From Macrocystis pyrifera (Eukaryota; Sar; Phaeophyceae; Laminariales; Laminariaceae), in assembly GCA_031763025.1 (NCBI GenBank), contig JASSKH010000012.1, positions 4,559,397 to 4,623,396 of the forward strand: a DNA stretch of 64,000 nucleotides, in the 5' to 3' direction. The notes beneath the pieces were generated by a model. The model was not told the DNA's origin. It saw only the letters and a program-made list of their open reading frames with translations, and ran no database searches. Every line of letters begins with the position of its first letter. Position 1 is the first letter of the stretch. Below, piece after piece: positions 25,751 through 45,362 of the stretch. The position numbers and the translations under genes were made by a program.

Positions 25751-26188
25751 GCATGTCAATATAAATTGGTGTGGGCCTTCACCAAACCTAACTGCCCAGT
25801 GGTAGTAGGTGGGGAGAGAGGAGAGATCATCTGTCGTCGTGTTTTGTTTTTAATAATAAAGCCATCCTCGAAAATCCGGGCAACCGGGTGCGATGTCCCG
25901 GTGACAGGGAAAAACGCACGGAGGCCGTTCGAAAGAAGCAAGTTGGAGTATAGTCGATTCAACTGTCCTCGCTGTGTTTGCCACCTATTTCCACAGCTCG
26001 CTGTGGTCGTGTCGACCCCCTAAGACCCCTCGACCGGCGCCTGGTGCGTTCTAAGACGACTCTAAGACGTGCCAAGACGAACCAAAATGTGCCAAGACGA
26101 ATCTAAGACTTGCCAAGACGCGATATAGCGAGTAAGACGTGCCTCTTTCTTAGAAACGGATTAAGACGTATTTTAAGACACGTCTTTT

Positions 26189-26420
26189 CCAAAATTCAAA
26201 TTAGGACTCTGGAGAAACGGGAAATTGTTCCTGAAAGCTCGCAAAAAACCACGGGGAGCATTTTGAGGAGTCTATCGGTGTTTCTGGCTTTCCCGCCAAG
26301 TAAAACGCGTATATTCGGCCTAAAGAAACACCGATAGACTCCTCAAAATGCTCCCCGTAGTTTTTTGCGAGCTTTCAGGAACAATTTCCCGTTTCTCCAG
26401 AGTCCTAATTTGAATTTTGG
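26189..26420. repeat. Large near-perfect palindrome (2 x 96 bp, 40-bp loop)
   Basis: Left arm 26189-26284 (CCAAAATTCAAATTAGGACT ... ATCGGTGTTTC) and right arm 26325-26420 are reverse complements with a single mismatch. A transcript would fold into a long hairpin; on the minus strand the mismatch would be a G-U pair. It may be a foldback transposon or a small-RNA precursor. A diverged single-arm copy lies at 26566-26690. Confidence 0.85.
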
Positions 26421-26565
26421 AGTTGCCAATCACTTTTCTCTGGAGGGTCAGAAATAAGGCTGTTGGTCAGAACTGGGGCCAGAAATAGTGGATCTTCGAG
26501 GATTTTTGATGAAAAATCACGATGTCCTCAGAACTGGAAATATGGACGAACAGTCCTACGACGAC

Positions 26566-26690
26566 TCTGGAGAAACGGAAAAGTGCTCGAGAAAGCTCTC
26601 GGAAAACTAAGGGGGGCATCCTGAGGAGTCTACCGGTGTTTTTGACAGTCCCGTTGAGTAAATCGCGGTTTTTTTTTTTCGGCAAAAAAA
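26566..26690 (+). repeat. Diverged single-arm copy of the palindrome
   Basis: GACTCTGGAGAAACGGAAAA through GAGGAGTCTACCGGTGTTTT matches the left arm, and the loop region (GTCCCGTTGAGTAAATCGCG) matches the palindrome's loop. The palindrome's left half is therefore the ancestral unit. Confidence 0.6.
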
Positions 26691-27883
26691 GCCAGTTTTG
26701 AGACCCCTTCAAAAATTTCCCATAATAGTTGGTCTTAGAAGATTGGGCCTAGTTCCAGCGGACAAACAAAAAAGCTTCAAACGGGAAACAGGGGTTCGTG
26801 GAAACCCCTAAATTCGTGTGGTGAGATCGAGATTTTTTTTTTTTTTTTTTCGAGATTGGACTAAGGCCAGATCTTATGCAATTTTTTTTGAGGTGATTAT
26901 ATGGCTGTTTACGGAGGCTTCGGGGTATCTAGTCCCGTTTCTGATCAGATTTTATCAAAATCACGTCTTATGGGGCCTGTTTGGTGGAAAAAATGTTCCT
27001 CCGAGACTTTATCACTCATGAAAGTCCAGGAAGTGATTTTTTTTTTGACAGCCTTTTCTGATCAACTCTGAAAGTGATAAAATTTGCTTTTGCACAAGAC
27101 CTCGGAGGCATTGTACAATTTTGTGTAGGTTACAGACAGGGCTCATGATGGGTCACGACGCTACATGCTTGGTTACTCTTGTACACAGCTGGGCTCCAGC
27201 ACTTGTGCATCGGCCACTACGGAGAGAGAGGGCATCAATACCTTGGCCACCATCGCGTCCCTTGCTGCCGCCCAACTGCAGCTGCTCTAGGCAAAACAAC
27301 TTTGGATACGAATAGGACGAGACTACAGCAGTATCAAAACAATCTACGTAACGTTCTTCTTTTCTGACTACGACGGCCGCAAGCAGCTCATGCTCCGCGA
27401 GAGCGAGAGCTCCTTGCTGGTCCAGCGACCCTTACGCAGCTCCCCAGGAGGTTCCACGTTTCGTTCCTTCCTTGGAGGAGCTGGTGGTGAAGGTTGATCG
27501 CCCAACCCGGCGTGAACGACTCGTTCGTGTCGTGGTCCACGTACGTAGAGTTCAAGGAAACTTCAAGATCTCGGTTCTGTTCTTTTTTTTTTTTGTTCTC
27601 CCATGAAATAAAACCAAAAACACCATAAGACGGCACATGGCGCACCGATCTGGTGTGGCTTTTTGCCGCAGGGAAATCCGACTTCCTGCCTTTTTCAATC
27701 ACTCAAAAAATATTGCATAAGATCTGGCCTAAAATGGGAATCATTCCCATTGGATTGTACTTGGGTTCTGCCGGGATTTTCCTCCATGCCTGCTGCGGTG
27801 TGAGGACTCGGCACGTCGTTAATCGGTACATTATTGTCTACAGGAGGTTGGTGTGTAGGATTCGTTACTGGCTGCCCCCCTCC

Positions 27884-28330
27884 TATTTTTCGCAGTGGTC
27901 CCCCTCGACTTTTGTCATCGACGATGTGTCGTATTCCTGCGCGGAGCAGTGTATGATGGCTGAAAAGGCTCGCCTTTTTCAGGACCACGACGCAGCGGAG
28001 CGGATTTTGGCCTCGCCAGACCCACGCGAGCACAAACGCCTCGGTCGAGTCTTGCATAAATTCCTCTGCGCTATCTGGGACCGCGTTCGGGAAGACGCCG
28101 TCCTTGCTGGTACTTTTGCCATATTCACGCAGAACCCGGCCATGAAGCAGCACCTATTGAGCACTTGCATCCATTTTCTGGTTGAAGCCAGCCCTTTTGA
28201 CCTCGTGTGGGGCATCGGTCTCCAGGCAGACGACCCCGAGGCTCAAGACCCCACTCGGTGGCGTGGGAAAAAACTTGCTCGGGAAAGCTCTCTCCGGTGT
28301 TCGCGACACCCTCCGCTCTATTGAGGCCGG
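27884..28330 (+). CDS. NADAR (YbiA-like) domain at the front of the Ty3/gypsy element
   Basis: Reads YFSQWSPSTFVIDDVSYSCA, then EQCMMAEKARLFQD, then LVEASPFDLVWGIGLQADDP, ending DPTRWRGK. These match the NADAR fold: the F-S-N/Q-W-type start, the AExxMMAxKARLF helix, the FxQNP motif (FTQNPAMKQHLL) and the EASPxDxxWGIGL loop. NADAR proteins bind ADP-ribose-type ligands, and several remove ADP-ribose from guanine bases (family knowledge). It lies in the same direction as, and directly before, the protease region, so it appears to be part of the element rather than a host gene. It belongs to a broken element and is described only as a fossil domain. Confidence 0.75.
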
Positions 28331-28629
28331 GTTGGCACACCCCGCCTCCTCTAATCAATTTTGCACTCCGACCACGACTGACAGAATCCATGAGATTTCA
28401 CCAGCACCGCCCCGCCTTTTAGCCGTGGCCCGCGCTTCCCCAGGTCCTCCCTTGGAGTTTTCGACCGATTTTTCTGACTCGTCGGCTGGTCACAGCCCCG
28501 AGGTGTTGGCTGCCGCCCTTAGTGTCGACCCCTCCCTCGCGCTGCCGAACACGGCCCCTGCCTCGTCGGGGGCGCCAGTACCCTCGATGACGCCACTTTT
28601 ACAACACAAATCGCGATCCACAGCGGAGC

Positions 28630-28770
28630 TGGCGTTCTCGCACCTTTTGGTTGCGTCGCGCTTCTTGACACTGGCTCCCCACAGATTTTCATCCGACGAG
28701 ATGTTTGGGATCGCATGCACTCGGTTTGTGCTTCATCCATCGCGTGTGAGCAGAAATGCGCCCCTCGTTC
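28630..28770 (+). CDS. Aspartic protease region of the Ty3/gypsy element
   Basis: VALLDTGSPQIFIRRDVW contains the retropepsin signature LDTGS followed by a hydrophobic strand, as in Ty3/gypsy proteases. A region reading LLGRDSWMRF further on fits the second half of the fold. It is part of a broken element. Confidence 0.65.
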
Positions 28771-29395
28771 TTGGGGAGGTTTGGGTGAATCGGCCCTCCT
28801 GAAGACTTCGACTCCTGTACGCCCGAGCGTCCAATTTTTTTGGAGAAAATGAGCCTACGTGCTCCCTCGCAGTGTGGCCTGCGTGGTTCCCCCCTCAGTG
28901 ATGCAGCGTGCAGTACTGCTGGGACGTGACAGCTGGATGCGTTTCAATAGCCGCTCCTACCGCTCTCTGCTACATCGGTTGTCTGACCAACGCCTTTTTG
29001 GCGAGCTGGAGTTAGTTCACCACGTCCCGACAGACATGTCCGTGTACACCATCGACCCCGCCGCTTCGGGTGGAGGCTTCCATCTACGCTACGAGGGCGC
29101 AGCAGGCATCACCCTGTCCGACGATTCTCAACTGCTTGCTGTTAACTTGGTTCGAAGCGATGGCTCCCCGGCTCCCACTGGACACTACTTGGTCGACTTG
29201 ATGCCCCAGCCGACCTACCCTCGGTCGAGGAGCACTTCGTCTCCTCCGAACGACAGGATCTTCCCCTCGTTGGAGTGGCGGCTCTCGAGCCGGGGGATAT
29301 CCTCGGCGTCGCCCACGCCCCACTGCTGAGCGTCCCGCTGGACGTTTTAGCAGCAGGACAACCGAACCCACAGCCCTCCCTCCGGACTATCTGAG

Positions 29396-30480
29396 GTGTC
29401 TCCGGTCCCTACAGTTCCAGCTTACGCCCTAGCAGCTCCAGCCTCGCCCTCGCCTGCACTGCTTGAACGTTTGAGCCCAGAGCAACGCGCTTCGTTCCTG
29501 CGCGTCTCGGCACGCTTGCTGTTACATCTGCAGGAGGTGGCTTTTGCCCTTCACGGCACGGACTGGACACCTGAGGCCATCGAACAGCTGGGGGATGTTC
29601 TCTGCGAATTTCCTGACGTTTTCTCGAAGTCCAAGTCTTATTTTGGTTCCTGCTCGTTGATGCCTCTCGTGATTTCGGTCCCGGAAGGAAGCGCTCCTGT
29701 CACGTCCAAGCCGCACCACATCAATCCCATCCTGGCCAAAGCAGTGGAGACCACCTTGAATCAGTACCTGGCGGCAGGCCTGGTCCAGCACTCGACCTCT
29801 CCGTGCTCGAGCCCGCTGGTGGTCATCCCGAAGAAGTCTGCAGGCGTTCGGATCACCGTGAACTACAAGAAACTCAACCAGATCAGCAACCTCAGTCAGC
29901 TGCCTATTCCTCGCGTGGACCAAGTCCTCGACTCCCTGGGGTAGGGACGGGTGTTTTCCCTCTTTGATTTGGTCATCTCGTTCCACCAGATTACCGTGCA
30001 CAAGGACAAGGTCCCTCTCACGGCGTTTTGCATTCCCACGGGCCTCTACGAGTGGCTCGTCATGCCCCAAGGCAGCAGTGCTTCGCCCGGCTGATTCGTC
30101 AAAGTGATTAACGAAGTCATTAAAGGCCTGGCACAGGTGGCGGCCTACCTCGATGACGTGATTGTTTTCGACTCTGATCCGGCGGCTCACGTCAAGACGA
30201 CACGAACCTCTTCGAACACCTGCACAAACACAGCCTCAAGCTCTCCCCCGCGAAGACTCGCCTCGGCGCCATGGGCGCCAATTTTCTGGGCCACTCCAAA
30301 CCGCCCGCGGGTATAAGCCCTAATGCGGAAAATTTTTCGGCTTTGATAAGAATGCCCATACCCAAGAAAGCAGGTCCACGCCCTGATCGGCGGCGTGGGA
30401 TATTATCGTAAATTTCTACCTGACCTGTCTAAACGGATACGTCCTCTCACCGCCCTTGGAGGTCAAGTACGTCTTTACGC
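29396..30480 (+). CDS. Reverse transcriptase region of the Ty3/gypsy element
   Basis: Contains the N-terminal block YLAAGLVQHSTSPCSSPLVV, then IPKKSAGVRITVNYKKLN (fingers), LPIPRVDQVLDSLG, FHQITVHKDKVPLTAF, and the catalytic YLDDVIVF. These are blocks 1-5 of a Ty3/gypsy RT in the right order. It is broken and not expected to be active. Confidence 0.8.
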
Positions 30481-30499
30481 CGGCTATGGAAGTTATCGT

Positions 30500-30870
30500 C
30501 CGCCAGATCCTCGCCGAGCTTGCTGCCCCACCGACTGTGGTCTTCCCTGACTGGAACGCCGTAGCCGACGGCTCCCGCCCTTTCTACTTGTATAGCGACG
30601 CCTGCATCGACGGTTTTGGTGCCGCGGTCGAACAATAACGACCGGACGGCTCGGTACGGTTCATTGCTTATATCAGCCGCGCTAACCTCGGTTACGAGAG
30701 GTACTGGACACCGTTGGACCTGGACGCTGGTAGCATTGTCTGGGCCATCAAACGACTCCGAGGTTACCTGTGGGGCACGGATTTTCGAATATTTTCGGAC
30801 CACAAAGCACTTGAGAGCATCGGCAAAGTAGGGGACCACAACGCGCGCGTCCAGCGCTGACTCGAGTTCC
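30500..30870 (+). CDS. RNase H region of the Ty3/gypsy element
   Basis: YLYSDACIDGFGAAVEQ carries the first catalytic Asp, and a later segment contains WTPLDLDAGSIVWAIKRLRG and RIFSDHKALESI with the TDHKAL-type motif. This is the standard arrangement after RT. It is part of the fossil element. Confidence 0.75.
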
Positions 30871-32189
30871 TCACCGCGTTCGACTACACCCTCGAGTACC
30901 GCAAGGACATCGCCAACGGAAATGCTGGTTTTCTGTCCCGTTTGCCGGATCCCGCCACAGAACACAACCGCAGTGGGTCTAGCTGCATCAACCACGTCGA
31001 GGACGGCGATATCTTCCTCATCCGAGCCTGCGGGCTTCGCACTCGCTCTTCGCCGACCCCTGGTGTCGGTTTGCGTGGGCTGGTGCCCCGCAGTGAAAGT
31101 GCTGTCTTGGGTGGGCTGCCATTCACCTCTTCGAATTTTCGCGATTTTCACGCACACGGGCCACGTATGAGGATTGACGACCTCTCTGCTCCTTCGGGGA
31201 GATTCGTCGTTCGTGTATCTGCTCCCGTCGCCACCGTCGATCGCCGTCCTGGCTTGAGGGTTTTCCCCCCCCACCGCCAACTCCGCTTTCGATTCGGTTT
31301 TAGTCGTACCCTCCGGAGGCGACCAGGGCTCTGCAGAAGCCCCCGCTGCAGCGACGATTGTCGCCCAGCGCGCTCCTCTCCCGACGAGCTCTCTACAGGG
31401 AGAATATTCCGCCGTGATATCTGATCCGGCCGCGTCTCCCCCTTTACCGCCTGGCAACCCGGCGCCTCCGAATATCTTGCTGCCTTCAGGCCGCTTCCCC
31501 ACTCGGACGCGCCGACGAACAGCCGTTGCCGCTGGCACCGCGCCACCTGCTGTTGGTTATGGCTTCGGGACAGCCGGGGTCCGTAGACCCCCCGCCCGGC
31601 GTGCTGTCACCCCGCCGCGAGCCCCACGGCCGCGACCGACCGACCCCCCGTCGATACGGCCCCGACTCCTGGCGCCTCGTCGATCCCGAGGGTACCCATT
31701 CCGTCTGACCGCGACCGCGCCGAGTCCGTGGGGACTCCTCTTTTACGGCTTCCTCTTCAGACTGACGCACCGCCCGTCACCACGACCGTTTTGAACGATC
31801 TCGGCGCAGCTGCTGAATTTCAGTTCGGTGATTCCGCAGCGCGCTATTCTCACACCTCTGGGCTCGGGAACAACAGGTCGAGCCCGCGTGCAACGCCGCC
31901 ATGCGCTACATAGCCCTTGGCCGGCTGGGAGCTTTGCCCGCCGACTTTAGTCGTGTTTTCCTTCCCATAGCGCCCTTCCTTTTCGGAAGTTCAGGAGCTG
32001 GCTATCAAAGACCGCTTGCATACCACCGACGCGGGCATTATTCTACTTGTCCGACAGCCGTCCCCCCCCCCTGCGTTGGACACGCAACGCCCGGTGGGTC
32101 GTACAGCCTGTTTATTGAACGGCGAGCCTATTCGCTTTTATGTGCCGCTGCTGGTCCGCCCCTGGGTCATGCAGGCTTCTTATTCCACG

Positions 32190-33165
32190 GCTTCCTGCCA
32201 CCTAGGAACCGCGCGCACCCTACGTATGCTCAAATGTTTCTACTGGTGGATCGGTATGAGCATCTGCACCCGGTGGTGGTTACGCAACTGCTTGAAGGGC
32301 CAAGCACGAAAAACGTCGCGGCAGACGGTCCGGTGCCCCAACATCACGTTGCCCTTGCCAGAAGGGCCCGGCATCGCCGTCAGCATCGAATATTTCGGCC
32401 CTCTCCCGGTGAAGCCTCGAAGTAATACCTACATCTTGCTTTTCACTGATCGTTTCAGCCGCCGAGTCGACATGTACGCCGTCACAGTGGCAGAGTTCAC
32501 CGCTCAGGGCACGGCTAACATCCTTATCAACCGGCATACTCCCCTCTGGGGGTGCCCGCGCAGAATCCTCTCGGACAACGGCCTCCAGTTCTGCTCCAAG
32601 CTCTTGCACGCCGTTTACCAGCTTCTCGAGGTTCGAAAAATTGCCACCAGCTCTTACCACCCAAACTGCAACGGTGGGATGGAACGTGTAAACCACACGA
32701 TGGTCCAGACGCTGGCAATGGTCGTCAACGAGCTCCAAAACAACAGGGATGAACAGTTCCCTCACGGTGAATTTGCGTACAACAGTTCTGTCGGCGCCGC
32801 CACTGGTTTGGCTCCCAACGAGGTACATATGGGTCGGCTGCCACGCCTCCCTCTCTCGATTTTCGAGCGTGTTGGAGTCGCCGGTCACCAGAGCTTGGCC
32901 CCCGACCACCTCGCCTACTGCGACTTGGCGACGGACCGCCAACAGCGCGCGTACGATATCATTCGTGAACACCACGCCCTCACTGTTGCTCGTGTGATCC
33001 GCCGCAACTCCGCCCTCTCCGACGCCCTGCGTCCGGTCCCCAAATTCGACGTTGGCGGTTGGGTGTGGGTGTACAATACAGCGGCCACCATCCGCCAGGG
33101 CGCGAAACCCGATACGGATGCCAGGATCCTCAAGGTCAATCTCTCACTCAACTGGACGGGCCCCT
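32190..33165 (+). CDS. Integrase region of the Ty3/gypsy element
   Basis: A zinc-finger-like region (LGTARTLRMLKCFYWW) precedes the catalytic core: ISIEYFGPLPV-type DYF start, LLFTDRFSRRVDMYAVTVAE, ILSDNGLQFCSKL (second Asp), SSYHPNCNGGMERVNHTM (catalytic Glu) and EFAYNSSVGAATGLAPNEV. The order and spacing are those of gypsy integrases. It belongs to a broken element. Confidence 0.85.
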
Positions 33166-33661
33166 AAAAAGTCCTCGCAGTTGGCCCCTGCTCCTCAGCA
33201 GACACCCCGGACGGATCTCCTGCCGGAGCAAAGCTCCTGCATTTGGATCTTCTTTCCGATATTCCTGGCGCTGAGGCTCGCCGGCGCGTATCAGTTCAAC
33301 GCTGCAAGCCTTGCGCCAACCCCTACGACTGTGGCGACATGCCGAAGTATTTGGCGGCAGGGTTGACGCAATCCGTGCTCAACAACTTGTCCAAGAAACC
33401 CCCCCCCGTCTCGCGTCACCGACGACGACGTTTTGATCCCTCTTCAACGACTCGAAGAGGAAAAGACTACCGGACACCAATCGGTTAGAGGTCGAGGTGG
33501 CGTCATCGCGGTGATGTACGAGACGCACTGGACAGGAATATCCCGTCCATCCTGGGAACGAGAAATAGACCTTCAGCTTTCTCGCCACGCAAGTTTGCGC
33601 TACTGGGCCGGCACCCCGAGCCAACACCGCTAAACCAACCGCCTGTACCACCGAATGAGAA

Positions 33662-34066
33662 TTGGCACGGCACAACGGGAGCTTTCTCGGAGTAACGGCG
33701 AGCGGTTTCTGGCACCCGGCTATGGCTGCATATCGTACGCCGATTGGCTCCGCCGATGCACGCCGATCGGCTCCGCCGATACAGCAAACTGAATTTCCTA
33801 ACGGGGCCCACTTTTGGTACAAGAGCGACGACGGTCTGTGGTGGCTCGGGAAAATCAGCGCAACCACGCCAACGGATGGAGTATATTTGATTCGATTTTT
33901 GGACGACCCGGGACCGATCAAGCTTCCTCTTTCTCCGGCGCGCTACACGATTTCGACGAGAGCTGTACGGGGTTCTTGGTGTCTGCAAATTCACTTCGCT
34001 GGCGCGTTTACACGGGGGGTCCAGCGTAACGTAGATGAATCTCGAGGCACCGCCGTGGATTGCTGA
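33662..34066 (+). CDS. C-terminal SH3/Tudor-like region of the Ty3/gypsy element
   Basis: FWYKSDDGLWWLGKISATTP, then VYLIRFLDDPGPIKLPL, resembles a small barrel domain (Tudor/SH3/chromo class) as found at the end of some Ty3/gypsy polyproteins, where it helps target integration (family knowledge). An aromatic cluster (FWY, WW) suggests peptide or chromatin binding. It ends at a stop near 34066. Confidence 0.5.
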   Translation: MARHNGSFLGVTASGFWHPAMAAYRTPIGSADARRSAPPIQQTEFPNGAHFWYKSDDGLWWLGKISATTPTDGVYLIRFLDDPGPIKLPLSPARYTISTRAVRGSWCLQIHFAGAFTRGVQRNVDESRGTAVDC

Positions 34067-34413
34067 TTTTCGCTTCTCGACTGTACTCGATAATATTTTT
34101 TTCTTTTTTGTCGTTTTCCTGGACTTTGGGGGGTGGGTTTTTCTGCTCGGTGTGCTTCTGGTTTGTTTTCTTTTTTTGGGGCTGGGTTGGGGATGGTTTT
34201 TTTGCGTATTTTGTCCTGCCTACCCCCCCCCCGCTCAGTGTCGGGGCTGGTCTTGGTAATCGGGCCACTCATTTGTGACCCAGGACGCGTTTTCAGAGTT
34301 GTGGGTTGGGTTTAGATGGTTCTTGTCGTCTTCCGTGTTGAGTTTTCTTCTCGTTTTTGGTAATCACTTTCCGCTTTTCCATGCATCTTCCTCGCGTCCC
34401 CCCCCGTGCTGGT

Positions 34414-34497
34414 GGCATGGCGATGGCTTTCATTGACGATTTCTTCCTGCCCCTTGGCATGGCGATGGCTTTCATTGACGATTTCTTCCTGCCCCTT
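34414..34497 (+). repeat. Two perfect 42-bp tandem units
   Basis: GGCATGGCGATGGCTTTCAT starts both units (34414 and 34456). The unit is 42 bp (14 codons), just past the Ty3/gypsy coding region and possibly within its 3' end. Confidence 0.75.
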
Positions 34498-36614: not shown

Positions 36615-37065
36615 CGGGACCACAGGCCGGCGCAGGAGGCCTCATCCAATCCAATACTTACATTAAATGATCCACGGTAGAGAGACAGAAGACAACAGTA
36701 AAATGGCGATCCAATCGATGGGCTCAAGATTTGGCACATATAATGGAACCATCGATGATATCGACATGTCTCGGAATTTGTATCGTAACGAGGTCAGTTC
36801 TTCTTTTCGCTCCCGACACCTCGGGAGTAGAGTTGGAGTCGCAACATTTCTTGAGACCAACCCACCCACCCGGCAGTAGGATTAGTATTATGCTTGTATA
36901 CCCCGATCATTTACAGGTACCAACCCCGCGCAGAGTACGTGATACGTTAGTCTACTCAGCGCGGAGGGAAACACCAGACGAGACCTCCTGCCGGGCGCAG
37001 GAGGCCTCATCCAATCCAATACTTACATTTAAATGATCCACGGTAGAGAGACAGAATACAACAGG
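36615..37065 (+). repeat. Direct repeats of about 80 bp, 377 bp apart
   Basis: GCGCAGGAGGCCTCATCCAA and the following text to GAGAGACAGAA occur at 36617-36695 and 36993-37070, nearly identical. The enclosed 300 bp shows no gene. Confidence 0.6.
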
Positions 37066-37515
37066 AAAAATGTCAACACAGTCGGAAAAAAGGAGGGGGA
37101 AATAGCAAAGGGTCACACAAATGAATAAATATCACAATAGTTATTAAGGTGGCGCAGCCGGCACAGAATGGCAGGGTACGGCGGTGGGGGGGGGGTGGGT
37201 ACCCTCGACTTGGCAGGGAACATGGCATCACAACAAACAAAACCCAACGAAAACAAATAAAACAGGGACTGTGAGTGTAAACACAGCAGCATTGGACGGT
37301 ACCTGATAGTCTCTACTAACAGGCGTCTCGACGATTAATAGGAAGGCGGCCAGAGCGCCAAGTTTCGGCGGGTGCCTTCACTTTCTTAACGGGCCTAGTT
37401 CCTGTTCCTACGCCTCCTTTAACGTGGCATTCCTTCCTCCCCTCCCTGGCCTTGGGCCCAACGGCGTCTCGATTGAATTGCTGCGAACTTTGTACCTCAA
37501 GCGCTCGTCGGTTTG

Positions 37516-38247
37516 CTACATTCTCAAGCTCTGCCGCTTCTTCAACACGCCTGAACCACTTGTTGCCCGATTCCTTCGCTGTAAGCTTCCATTGTTTCTC
37601 TTCGATGGGCAAGTTAACAACGATAGGTCGCGTTCAAGAAAACTCATGCCGTCCTGCTCTTTCCCTCTCAGGTAACCTTTACCCCCCTCCAGTTCCCCAA
37701 AAATCACTTGTTTGGGTAATCTCTCGTTACTCATACGAGCCACGAACCCCGCGAAAAGTATCCTCCGCTTTCGCACCGTCGTCTCGATGACCTCACAGCC
37801 AGGCTTGAATTTGTGTATGAAAGCGTATGGTAGCCGTCGCGAGGTTATGTCTTCCATTCGATGCAGCGGAAGAGTAATCGGCGGTAGGTACCTGCAGTAT
37901 GGTGAGATGGGCCGCGGTGGGACTGCACGTGAGACACATCTGTATAGCATGGTCTCCATTATCTCGGCGTTGAGCATCCGTACTTGTAGCCGGAACGCTG
38001 CGGTGGGCTGATCGTACAGTGGCAAACTACTCCGTCTGAAACGTGAATTGGCCAGCAGCACGCATCGGTTGATTCCAGCAGCAAGGTCGGCGTTCTCGCA
38101 CACAGTTGCCCCAAGGAACACGAACTTGGTGGTTTGTTTGTGCACCTGGCCGGCTGCCAGAGTAACGACAGTGGCCCTGTCCATACGTTTCTTGGCTTCC
38201 AAAATCGTCGATCCGAACGAACCACACACTGCAACGATAACTGCCAT
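37516..38247 (-). CDS. LINE RT thumb and C-terminal region
   Basis: Open for 243 codons. It contains [20 protein letters not shown], typical of the RTE thumb region, and later [20 protein letters not shown] and [20 protein letters not shown], the LINE C-terminal tail. The upstream RT palm is in other frames, so this is a fragment of one ancestral protein. Confidence 0.7.
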
Positions 38248-39305
38248 CGTCTTCGCAAGGCTGTTCCTCGATCTGGAAACGATGCTCGCATCGTCTGCAC
38301 ACAGTGTTCCCTACATCGGTTGCAGCTCCGCCACAGTCGCCTGGGGTACATCTCGCCGTCCCCCCCCCCCTATCATCCTTCACCTTGGTGCATACCATAT
38401 CCTTCACAACATCTGCATTGGCGCTAAACCGCTCCACTGCTACACGCAGTACGGCAGTAAAGAACATGTTGAACAACAAAGGTGCGCGCACGCATCCTTG
38501 CCGTAGGCCCTGCCCCACGCCGAACCAGTCTGAATATTCACCACCGTCGGTCCGGACGCGCGCACGCATTCCATCGTGGAAGTGGCGAATAGCCGCGAGC
38601 ATTTTTGGTGGTACGCTGAACCGAGCGAGCACGGCCCACAAGGGAGTCCGGTTGACTGAATCGTATGCCTAGGCGAGGTCGACGAAACACATGTACAAAG
38701 GGGCGCTCTCCTTTCGTGCCAACTGGTGAAGTCGTCAAACCACCAATATCACATCAATCGTCGACCGTTGAGGTCTGAAGCCGCACTGGTCCTCTGGTAA
38801 GATATTTTCCGTTCACAGTAATTGCTGAGGCGATTGGCGATTACCTTGAGCAGAACCTTGCCAGCGTGTGCCGCGAGCGAGATCCTCGATAGTTACCGCA
38901 CTTGGTCCGGTCCTTCTTCTTGTGCAGCACTATGATCGTAGCATCTTTCTACTCCTGGGGTACGCCCTCGTCCTGCCCTATGGCGATTACAATGGCGTGG
39001 AACTGTTTTAGTATACGGCAGACACCATCGCGATCTCCATCTAAGGCGAGTTTGAGCAGTTCAGCGGAAAGCTCATCGGGTCTAACAGCCTCTCGGTTTG
39101 ACAGGCTCTTGATAGTTTTCTCCACCTCAAAAGTGGAAGGCAAATCATCGAGAGGTGTTGCACGGAGGCCATACCTTGAACTCTTCGACGATGCTCGGGT
39201 CGAGCGCTGGCAAGTTAGTGTTGAGCCCAAACCTGAACCACTGTACGCATCGATCGCGAATGAGTCCCATGTCACGAAGCAAAGCTCCCTCTACGTCCTT
39301 ATGTA

Positions 39306-44790: not shown

Positions 44791-45362
44791 ACACATTTCA
44801 CCGTCCATATACCCACCGCAGACGACTGCGAAACACCAGCCTGCGTCAACGACCTTTAAGTGATTGCTGCTACGAAGTTTACCGTATAACACGGAAGAAC
44901 GCAAATCCCCCTGAGGCGTTCTACGCTGAGGCGTTCTACGACAGAGGTTCACCCTATATTTTCTAAGGCTCCTCACTTAAGGAGCTCCACACACTGACTT
45001 CAGCAAAACTCAAATTGCCCGATGAATAATCCCATGACCCAAGTACGAGAAAACGTCATTTTTCGAAACAAGATTGACATTCCGACGATTTTCGGTTTAA
45101 GGAGCCCCGTCGTTCAGAAAACATTTTAGCGGAAATACGCTACCTCTTTCGTAGAACGCGTCCCCTTAGATAATGCACCGACCCACATAAGCACACCCGG
45201 CGATATATAGTTTACTTCGTATTTTTTTAGCGTCATCACCGGTGGTACGATAGATAACCCGTCTCCTACGTATGTACGCCTGGAAACAATGTCAAACTCC
45301 ACAACTATTACACCACCTGGTGAATAGATACCATTCACAATTCACAATCAACCCGCACCGGT

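Follow-up and report, generated by a model that had tools for sequence, protein, structure and literature searches.

The window analysed here is a 64,000-nucleotide stretch of Macrocystis pyrifera (Phaeophyceae) DNA (contig JASSKH010000012.1, positions 4,559,397 to 4,623,396 of the forward strand). On that strand it carries a retrotransposon remnant that almost certainly belongs to a Ty3/gypsy (Metaviridae) family with a NADAR domain borne on Pol. Accessory enzymes are uncommon in long terminal repeat (LTR) retrotransposons. The fusion of NADAR, linker and protease in one reading frame is well supported by the sequences of relatives, which indicate that NADAR is a part of the element itself. 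Judged from its sequence, the window copy is dead: it is 5′-truncated in NADAR, frameshifted and incapable of making a working Pol. The sequence-only reading, an earlier reading of this DNA made from the letters alone, was unsure whether the combination was new; it had already been published for Gypsy-12_Ec32 and its relatives, NADAR-bearing Gypsy elements of Ectocarpus (Dinatale et al. 2025, PMC12477816).

NADAR within a Ty3/gypsy Pol

The sequence-only reading placed NADAR ahead of an LDTGS protease motif and a gypsy reverse transcriptase on the same strand, and profile and structure-database matches bear this out. The open reading frame (ORF) at 27629–28321(+) matched the Pfam NADAR profile PF08719 over residues 83–214 with 126.9 bits against a cut-off of 35.1 (E = 1.2e-36), and it contains the motifs that had been named, including AEQCMMAEK at 27941–27967, FTQNP and EASPFDLVWGIGL. 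The domain (27866–28290, +) lacks its start; relatives align only from 27860–27875, and homology ends at about 27866, just inside NADAR, which marks the 5′ truncation point. The best solved relative is 8bau (E = 6.3e-08). Using defining residues drawn from PMC11125620 and PMC11543638, the domain is assigned by sequence to the YbiA subfamily of the NADAR superfamily: the equivalents of E43 and K50 are Glu and Lys, and the last strand carries Glu rather than Asp or His.

Behind NADAR, all on the forward strand, the domains follow the Ty3/gypsy order of protease, reverse transcriptase, RNase H and integrase. The protease stretch (28523–28849) is recognized from its LDTGS motif (codons at 28664–28678) and from collinear relatives only, and no Pfam protease profile matched the window's own pieces above cut-off. 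LDTGS starts about 375 bp past the end of the NADAR domain; the adjacency proposed earlier holds, but the distance of about 300 bp given with it does not. The NADAR C-terminal tail and linker (28224–28580) lie in frame 3, where the PF08719 tail match is weak (E = 0.052) and where relatives P0250 and P0276 align in frame 3, with frame 2 on both sides. Because NADAR and protease are in frame 2 and the intervening linker in frame 3, the copy is frameshifted: the frame shifts near the end of NADAR and again ahead of the protease, and stops interrupt the remainder. The N-terminal part of the reverse transcriptase (29351–29941; Ty3 reverse transcriptase 4ol8, E = 6.1e-10) is ended by a stop, and is followed by its catalytic stretch (30095–30313) with YLDDV at 30146–30160 and a weak PF00078 match (E = 0.14). 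RNase H lies at 30639–30857 (PF17917, E = 7.7e-16). The zinc-binding and core parts of the integrase (31971–33164) matched PF17921 (E = 2.3e-07), PF00665 (rve; E = 7e-06, under its cut-off) and Ty3 Gag-Pol 7q5b (E = 1.3e-18). The integrase C-terminal end (33267–33407) is assigned by position, with residues 3–49 of P0233 aligning at 72% identity.

The element had been placed at 27100–34320. Its end is close to that point, since an antisense piece of a rearranged relative, P0336, matches 34186–34308(+) at 58.5% (E = 5e-08) and marks 3′ non-coding sequence, possibly LTR; its start is not at 27100, as homology begins at about 27860–27875. Neither a repeat search nor BLAST with the tail as query against the window revealed an LTR pair, and none is expected because the copy is without its 5′ end. 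N-terminal extensions of six relatives, searched for Gag upstream of the truncation point near 27866, gave chance-level matches only, bar a few residues at that point. As a separate observation, NADAR is also truncated in relative P0002. Its NADAR homology breaks off only a few codons from where that of the window copy does, yet the sequences upstream differ. The stretch N-terminal to NADAR in P0002 is matched elsewhere in the window, at 44917–44988(−), with 62.5% identity (E = 4e-04).

The in-frame form of the fusion is seen in public ORFs. In P0008 (299 residues), a single frame encodes NADAR (E = 4.4e-41), linker and protease, and the ORF aligns to window positions 27953–28840; a weak Ty3 peptidase hint (E = 0.29) lies in the same NADAR-bearing ORF. 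Two other ORFs are collinear with the window, P0324 over 27953–29212 and P0249 over 28275–29803. Residues 112–299 of P0008, its linker and protease, were then used as query, and the best 120 of 128 proteins were examined; the query began within the NADAR tail, and a fast-evolving linker retrieves its own family only, which limits how widely the counts apply. Pfam labelled NADAR in 31 of these 120. With NADAR-only references, 29 matched over at least 30 residues (19 of the 29 also have a [DE]TG[SAT] motif), and 88 have fewer than 40 residues upstream, too few to decide whether NADAR is present. In the remaining three, P0263 keeps a NADAR tail in frame, part of the NADAR stretch in P0310 lies in another frame, and in P0336 the place of NADAR is taken by antisense sequence from the 3′ end of the element, which makes it a rearranged copy. 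Copies without NADAR at this site had been named as grounds for refutation; among these 120 relatives, the one with other sequence in its place is the rearranged P0336. A pattern search of genome contigs returned 71 stretches, one of which encodes a relative, a Streptomyces NADAR at 48% that served as outgroup; none of the 11 pattern-matching stretches in viral contigs encodes one.

A tree of NADAR domains places the element-borne copies together. The best 120 of 135 matches, the window, the Streptomyces locus and 8bau gave 123 sequences; 14 short ones were dropped, and the remaining 109, each of 105 residues or more, made up the tree. The 27 rows labelled element-borne, the window among them, all fall in one 45-row clade (support 100/94), the outcome that had been asked of such a tree. 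BLAST matched element flanks to 11 of the 18 unlabelled rows in this clade and to none of the other 7, compared with 0 of 60 rows outside it; of the two rows adjoining it, one has a weak flank match (E = 0.008) and the other none. Because unlabelled rows sit among labelled ones, the element label needs 12 changes when strictly counted. The label rested on flanking motifs defined after the sequences had been seen and was therefore not blind, and the tree is limited by few columns and an unsettled bootstrap. A 57-row group (98/92) encloses the element clade, a NADAR protein of Chrysoparadoxa australica (P0036; 182 residues, 49% identity) and other rows. The sister of the element clade could not be fixed within this group, and therefore no NADAR donor is claimed. 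A host NADAR nearly identical to the window domain had been named as a possible sign of chance adjacency. Of the best 120 of 135 matches, no row placed outside the element clade exceeds 54% identity, and the 14 unplaced short fragments are 58–80% identical; the host genome itself lay outside this comparison.

Active site and possible role

Ten of the 12 ligand or catalytic positions of the Phytophthora NADAR are identical in the window (E43, K50, K75, G78, R79, W89, R93, E125, D130 and W133). The residue roles are taken from PMC11543638, where the Phytophthora enzyme removes ADP-ribose from guanine in DNA. Conservation of NADAR, protease stretch and linker was 0.571, 0.562 and 0.487 in the 31 Pfam-labelled ORFs, and 0.567, 0.553 and 0.480 in the 29 ORFs matched by NADAR-only references; NADAR is thus conserved to much the same degree as the protease stretch, and better than the linker. 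Nine active-site columns that we picked ourselves (8 usable) averaged 0.86 against 0.74 for all columns, and 152 of 20,000 random sets scored as high.

Ty3-type Pol is packaged where RNA and single-stranded cDNA coexist. A NADAR made as part of Pol would enter the virus-like particle with the genomic RNA and nascent single-stranded cDNA, and there it could strip ADP-ribose from guanine so that the template stays readable. Characterised NADARs remove this modification from guanine in DNA (PMC11543638, PMC11125620), and cleaning ADP-ribosylated guanines would be the simplest use of a kept active site. This mechanism, in which packaging, substrate, host modification and integration targeting are all inferred, is offered tentatively, at somewhat less than even confidence. 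The broader statement, of a NADAR-bearing Ty3/gypsy element with a two-reader tail whose NADAR cleans packaged RNA and cDNA, we regard as evenly balanced. A more specific version, with repair of packaged RNA and cDNA against a host ADP-ribosyltransferase defence so far undescribed in these hosts and a tandem chromodomain and Tudor-like tail reading a combined histone mark, is speculative and rather improbable as it stands.

Several results weigh against this account. Phytophthora Y84 and D86 are F and C in the window, and many element rows have lost residues (E125 is kept in 35 of 42 and D130 in 33 of 42). In a set that includes some wrongly assigned ORFs, the protease (0.635) was better conserved than NADAR (0.549) or linker (0.495). 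When all 12 contact sites were taken (11 usable), the average fell to 0.789 and 3149 of 20,000 random sets scored as high; for the usable two of three mutated sites the count was 3953 of 20,000. The excess conservation thus varies with the choice of sites and does not prove selection on catalysis.

The strongest competing view accepts NADAR as an element part and gives it another substrate, namely small molecules derived from NAD or ADP-ribose, or RNA processing intermediates, instead of ADP-ribosyl-guanine. The substrates of E. coli YbiA are riboflavin intermediates, and other targets are possible for isolated NADARs (PMC11543638); RNA viruses carry NADARs in polyproteins with the polymerase, for which macromolecular and soluble substrates are both discussed (PMC9503650); and Dinatale et al. 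suggested processing of the RNA intermediate as the role of NADAR in their elements (PMC12477816). However, the residues important for guanine-ADP-ribose hydrolysis (the E43, K50 and E125 equivalents) are kept in the window, and natural NADARs are reported to retain this hydrolysis (PMC11543638, PMC11125620). We consider a different substrate unlikely, if less so than the other alternatives. NADAR could instead serve the element non-catalytically, binding RNA or a ligand or acting within Pol as a spacer for folding or packaging. With all 12 contact sites counted, the active-site columns show no significant excess of conservation over the others, as such a role would allow, but it fits less well with conservation equal to that of the protease stretch and with the 10 of 12 contact positions identical in the window; we judge it improbable. 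Domestication of the locus as an element-derived host gene would agree with the NADAR frame, which stays open between the truncation point and the frameshift, and was rejected as very improbable given the missing NADAR start, the frameshift near the domain end and the stops through the remainder. Chance adjacency, with a host NADAR gene beside or captured by a single insertion, is favoured by the window NADAR starting right at the truncation point, with the host genome outside the search, and was rejected as next to negligible, as it is contradicted by ORFs elsewhere that encode NADAR, linker and protease in a single frame, by the well supported element clade and by the same fusion published in Ectocarpus (PMC12477816).

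The C-terminal tail of Pol

Returning to the NADAR-bearing element, two further domains may lie behind the integrase, a chromodomain-like stretch and a second, Tudor-like barrel, and these could steer integration. The chromodomain-like stretch (33451–33609, +) aligned with P0127 at 73% identity, and P0127 matches Pfam Chromo over positions 2–51 of 53 (E = 0.005, under the Pfam cut-off). The window piece at 33367–33630 had no Chromo match and matched DUF7289 alone (E = 0.0044, under cut-off); neither Tudor nor chromodomain profiles of Pfam matched the window's own pieces above cut-off. The Tudor-like barrel, a candidate second reader-like domain (33797–33952, +), was seen in a structure model of the window ORF with a block of predicted local distance difference test (pLDDT) values of 70–86 at residues 41–90. 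Foldseek ranked Tudor domains of PHF1, PHF19 and again PHF1 first to third for this model (E = 0.019–0.062, probability 0.87–0.99), and the best PDB sequences for a profile of the tail were PHF19 and PHF1 (E from 0.18). When 50 tail members were compared to curated profiles, Tudor_2 matched 2 (best E = 0.017), Agenet 7 (best 0.079) and SH3_VIII-1_N 13 (best 0.023). The barrel is followed by a C-terminal Pol tail to the stop (33953–34063, +) that is kept in two alignments; the ORF at 33659–34063 has 272 relatives. In 20 of the best 120 tail relatives, at least 30 residues of the chromodomain-like stretch occur in the same ORF as the Tudor-like domain. Seven tail relatives lack a chromodomain match despite 110 or more residues upstream; they are not counter-examples, because all seven match window positions 33400–33790 in some frame.

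The Chromo and Tudor matches are weak, and the Foldseek list also includes barrels of retroviral integrases, both of which detract from a tail of two readers. The second domain could instead be the type of SH3-like barrel found at the C-terminus of retroviral integrases, and not a histone-reading Tudor domain. Integrase chains of Rous sarcoma virus (RSV) and mouse mammary tumor virus (MMTV) rank 6 and 11–14 for a model of relative P0213 (E = 0.032–0.053), and no match falls below E = 0.001 for either the P0213 or the window model. However, the PHF19 Tudor ranks first for P0213 and PHF1 and PHF19 lead the window list, the same two proteins head the tail-profile search, and the P0233 alignment puts the integrase's own end upstream of the barrel. 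We consider an integrase-type barrel unlikely.

Known systems and neighbouring features

By its sequence, the window element fits the NADAR-bearing Gypsy lineage of Ectocarpus and is a further example of a published, still unexplained combination; Gypsy-12_Ec32 was compared through its published description. This element, of Ectocarpus sp. 7, is likewise Ty3/gypsy, and its integrase is cited as a case of a putative chromodomain at the C-terminus; horizontal acquisition of NADAR was suggested there because matches were almost exclusively bacterial (PMC12477816). The text of that article names no Tudor domain for this lineage, and the Tudor-like barrel and the Chrysoparadoxa relative go beyond it. 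Gypsy-10_Ec32 would resemble the window element in a C-terminal Tudor-type reader on Pol; it is reported as the lineage with a Tudor domain, and the text does not mention NADAR in it (PMC12477816). Tx1 long interspersed nuclear elements (LINEs) of Crassostrea gigas also encode an apparent YbiA-type NADAR in a retrotransposon protein, but these are non-LTR elements with a divergent NADAR in ORF1 and not in Pol (PMC12477816). The Phytophthora nicotianae NADAR (PDB 8bau by alignment; PMC11543638) is a YbiA-type domain from another stramenopile with 10 of 12 contact or catalytic positions in common; unlike the window NADAR, it is not described there as part of an element, and it scores 35.7 bits by phmmer and lies far outside the element clade. 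In DarT1-NADAR toxin-antitoxin systems NADAR removes ADP-ribose from guanine, as the window domain may likewise do, but it belongs to the BC4488 subfamily, has aspartate for the catalytic glutamate and is paired with a toxin gene (PMC11543638). A survey of titles and the beginnings of abstracts, with preprints and most subscription journals outside its scope, yielded no further report of NADAR or YbiA in retrotransposons.

Other repeats surround the remnant. Just upstream, 26866–27727 is bounded by inverted repeats of about 30 bp (94–97% complementary) with TAA on both outer sides, and resembles a small non-autonomous DNA transposon flanked by a 3-bp target duplication, which we take to be Harbinger-like. 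A 98-bp inverted repeat (99% complementary, 38-bp spacer) lies at 26188–26421, with a partial direct copy (79% identical) at 26563–26667. Shortly past the element end, 34413–34496 is a perfect tandem duplication of a 42-bp unit, and 36629–37069 holds direct repeats about 365 bp apart. Twenty other window ORFs gave one match above cut-off, a reverse transcriptase at 38030–38668(−) (PF00078, E = 5.3e-07, just above cut-off) that represents a second retroelement remnant, presumably non-LTR from the look of its sequence. No tRNA genes were found in the window.

If a retrotransposon lineage has preserved NADAR as well as its protease, nucleic-acid ADP-ribosylation would be indicated as a pressure on reverse transcription in these hosts, and the element NADAR offers an enzyme with which such a pressure can be tested. 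With a second, Tudor-like barrel following the chromodomain-like stretch, the integrase tail would have two readers, an arrangement that the text of PMC12477816 does not describe for the NADAR lineage.

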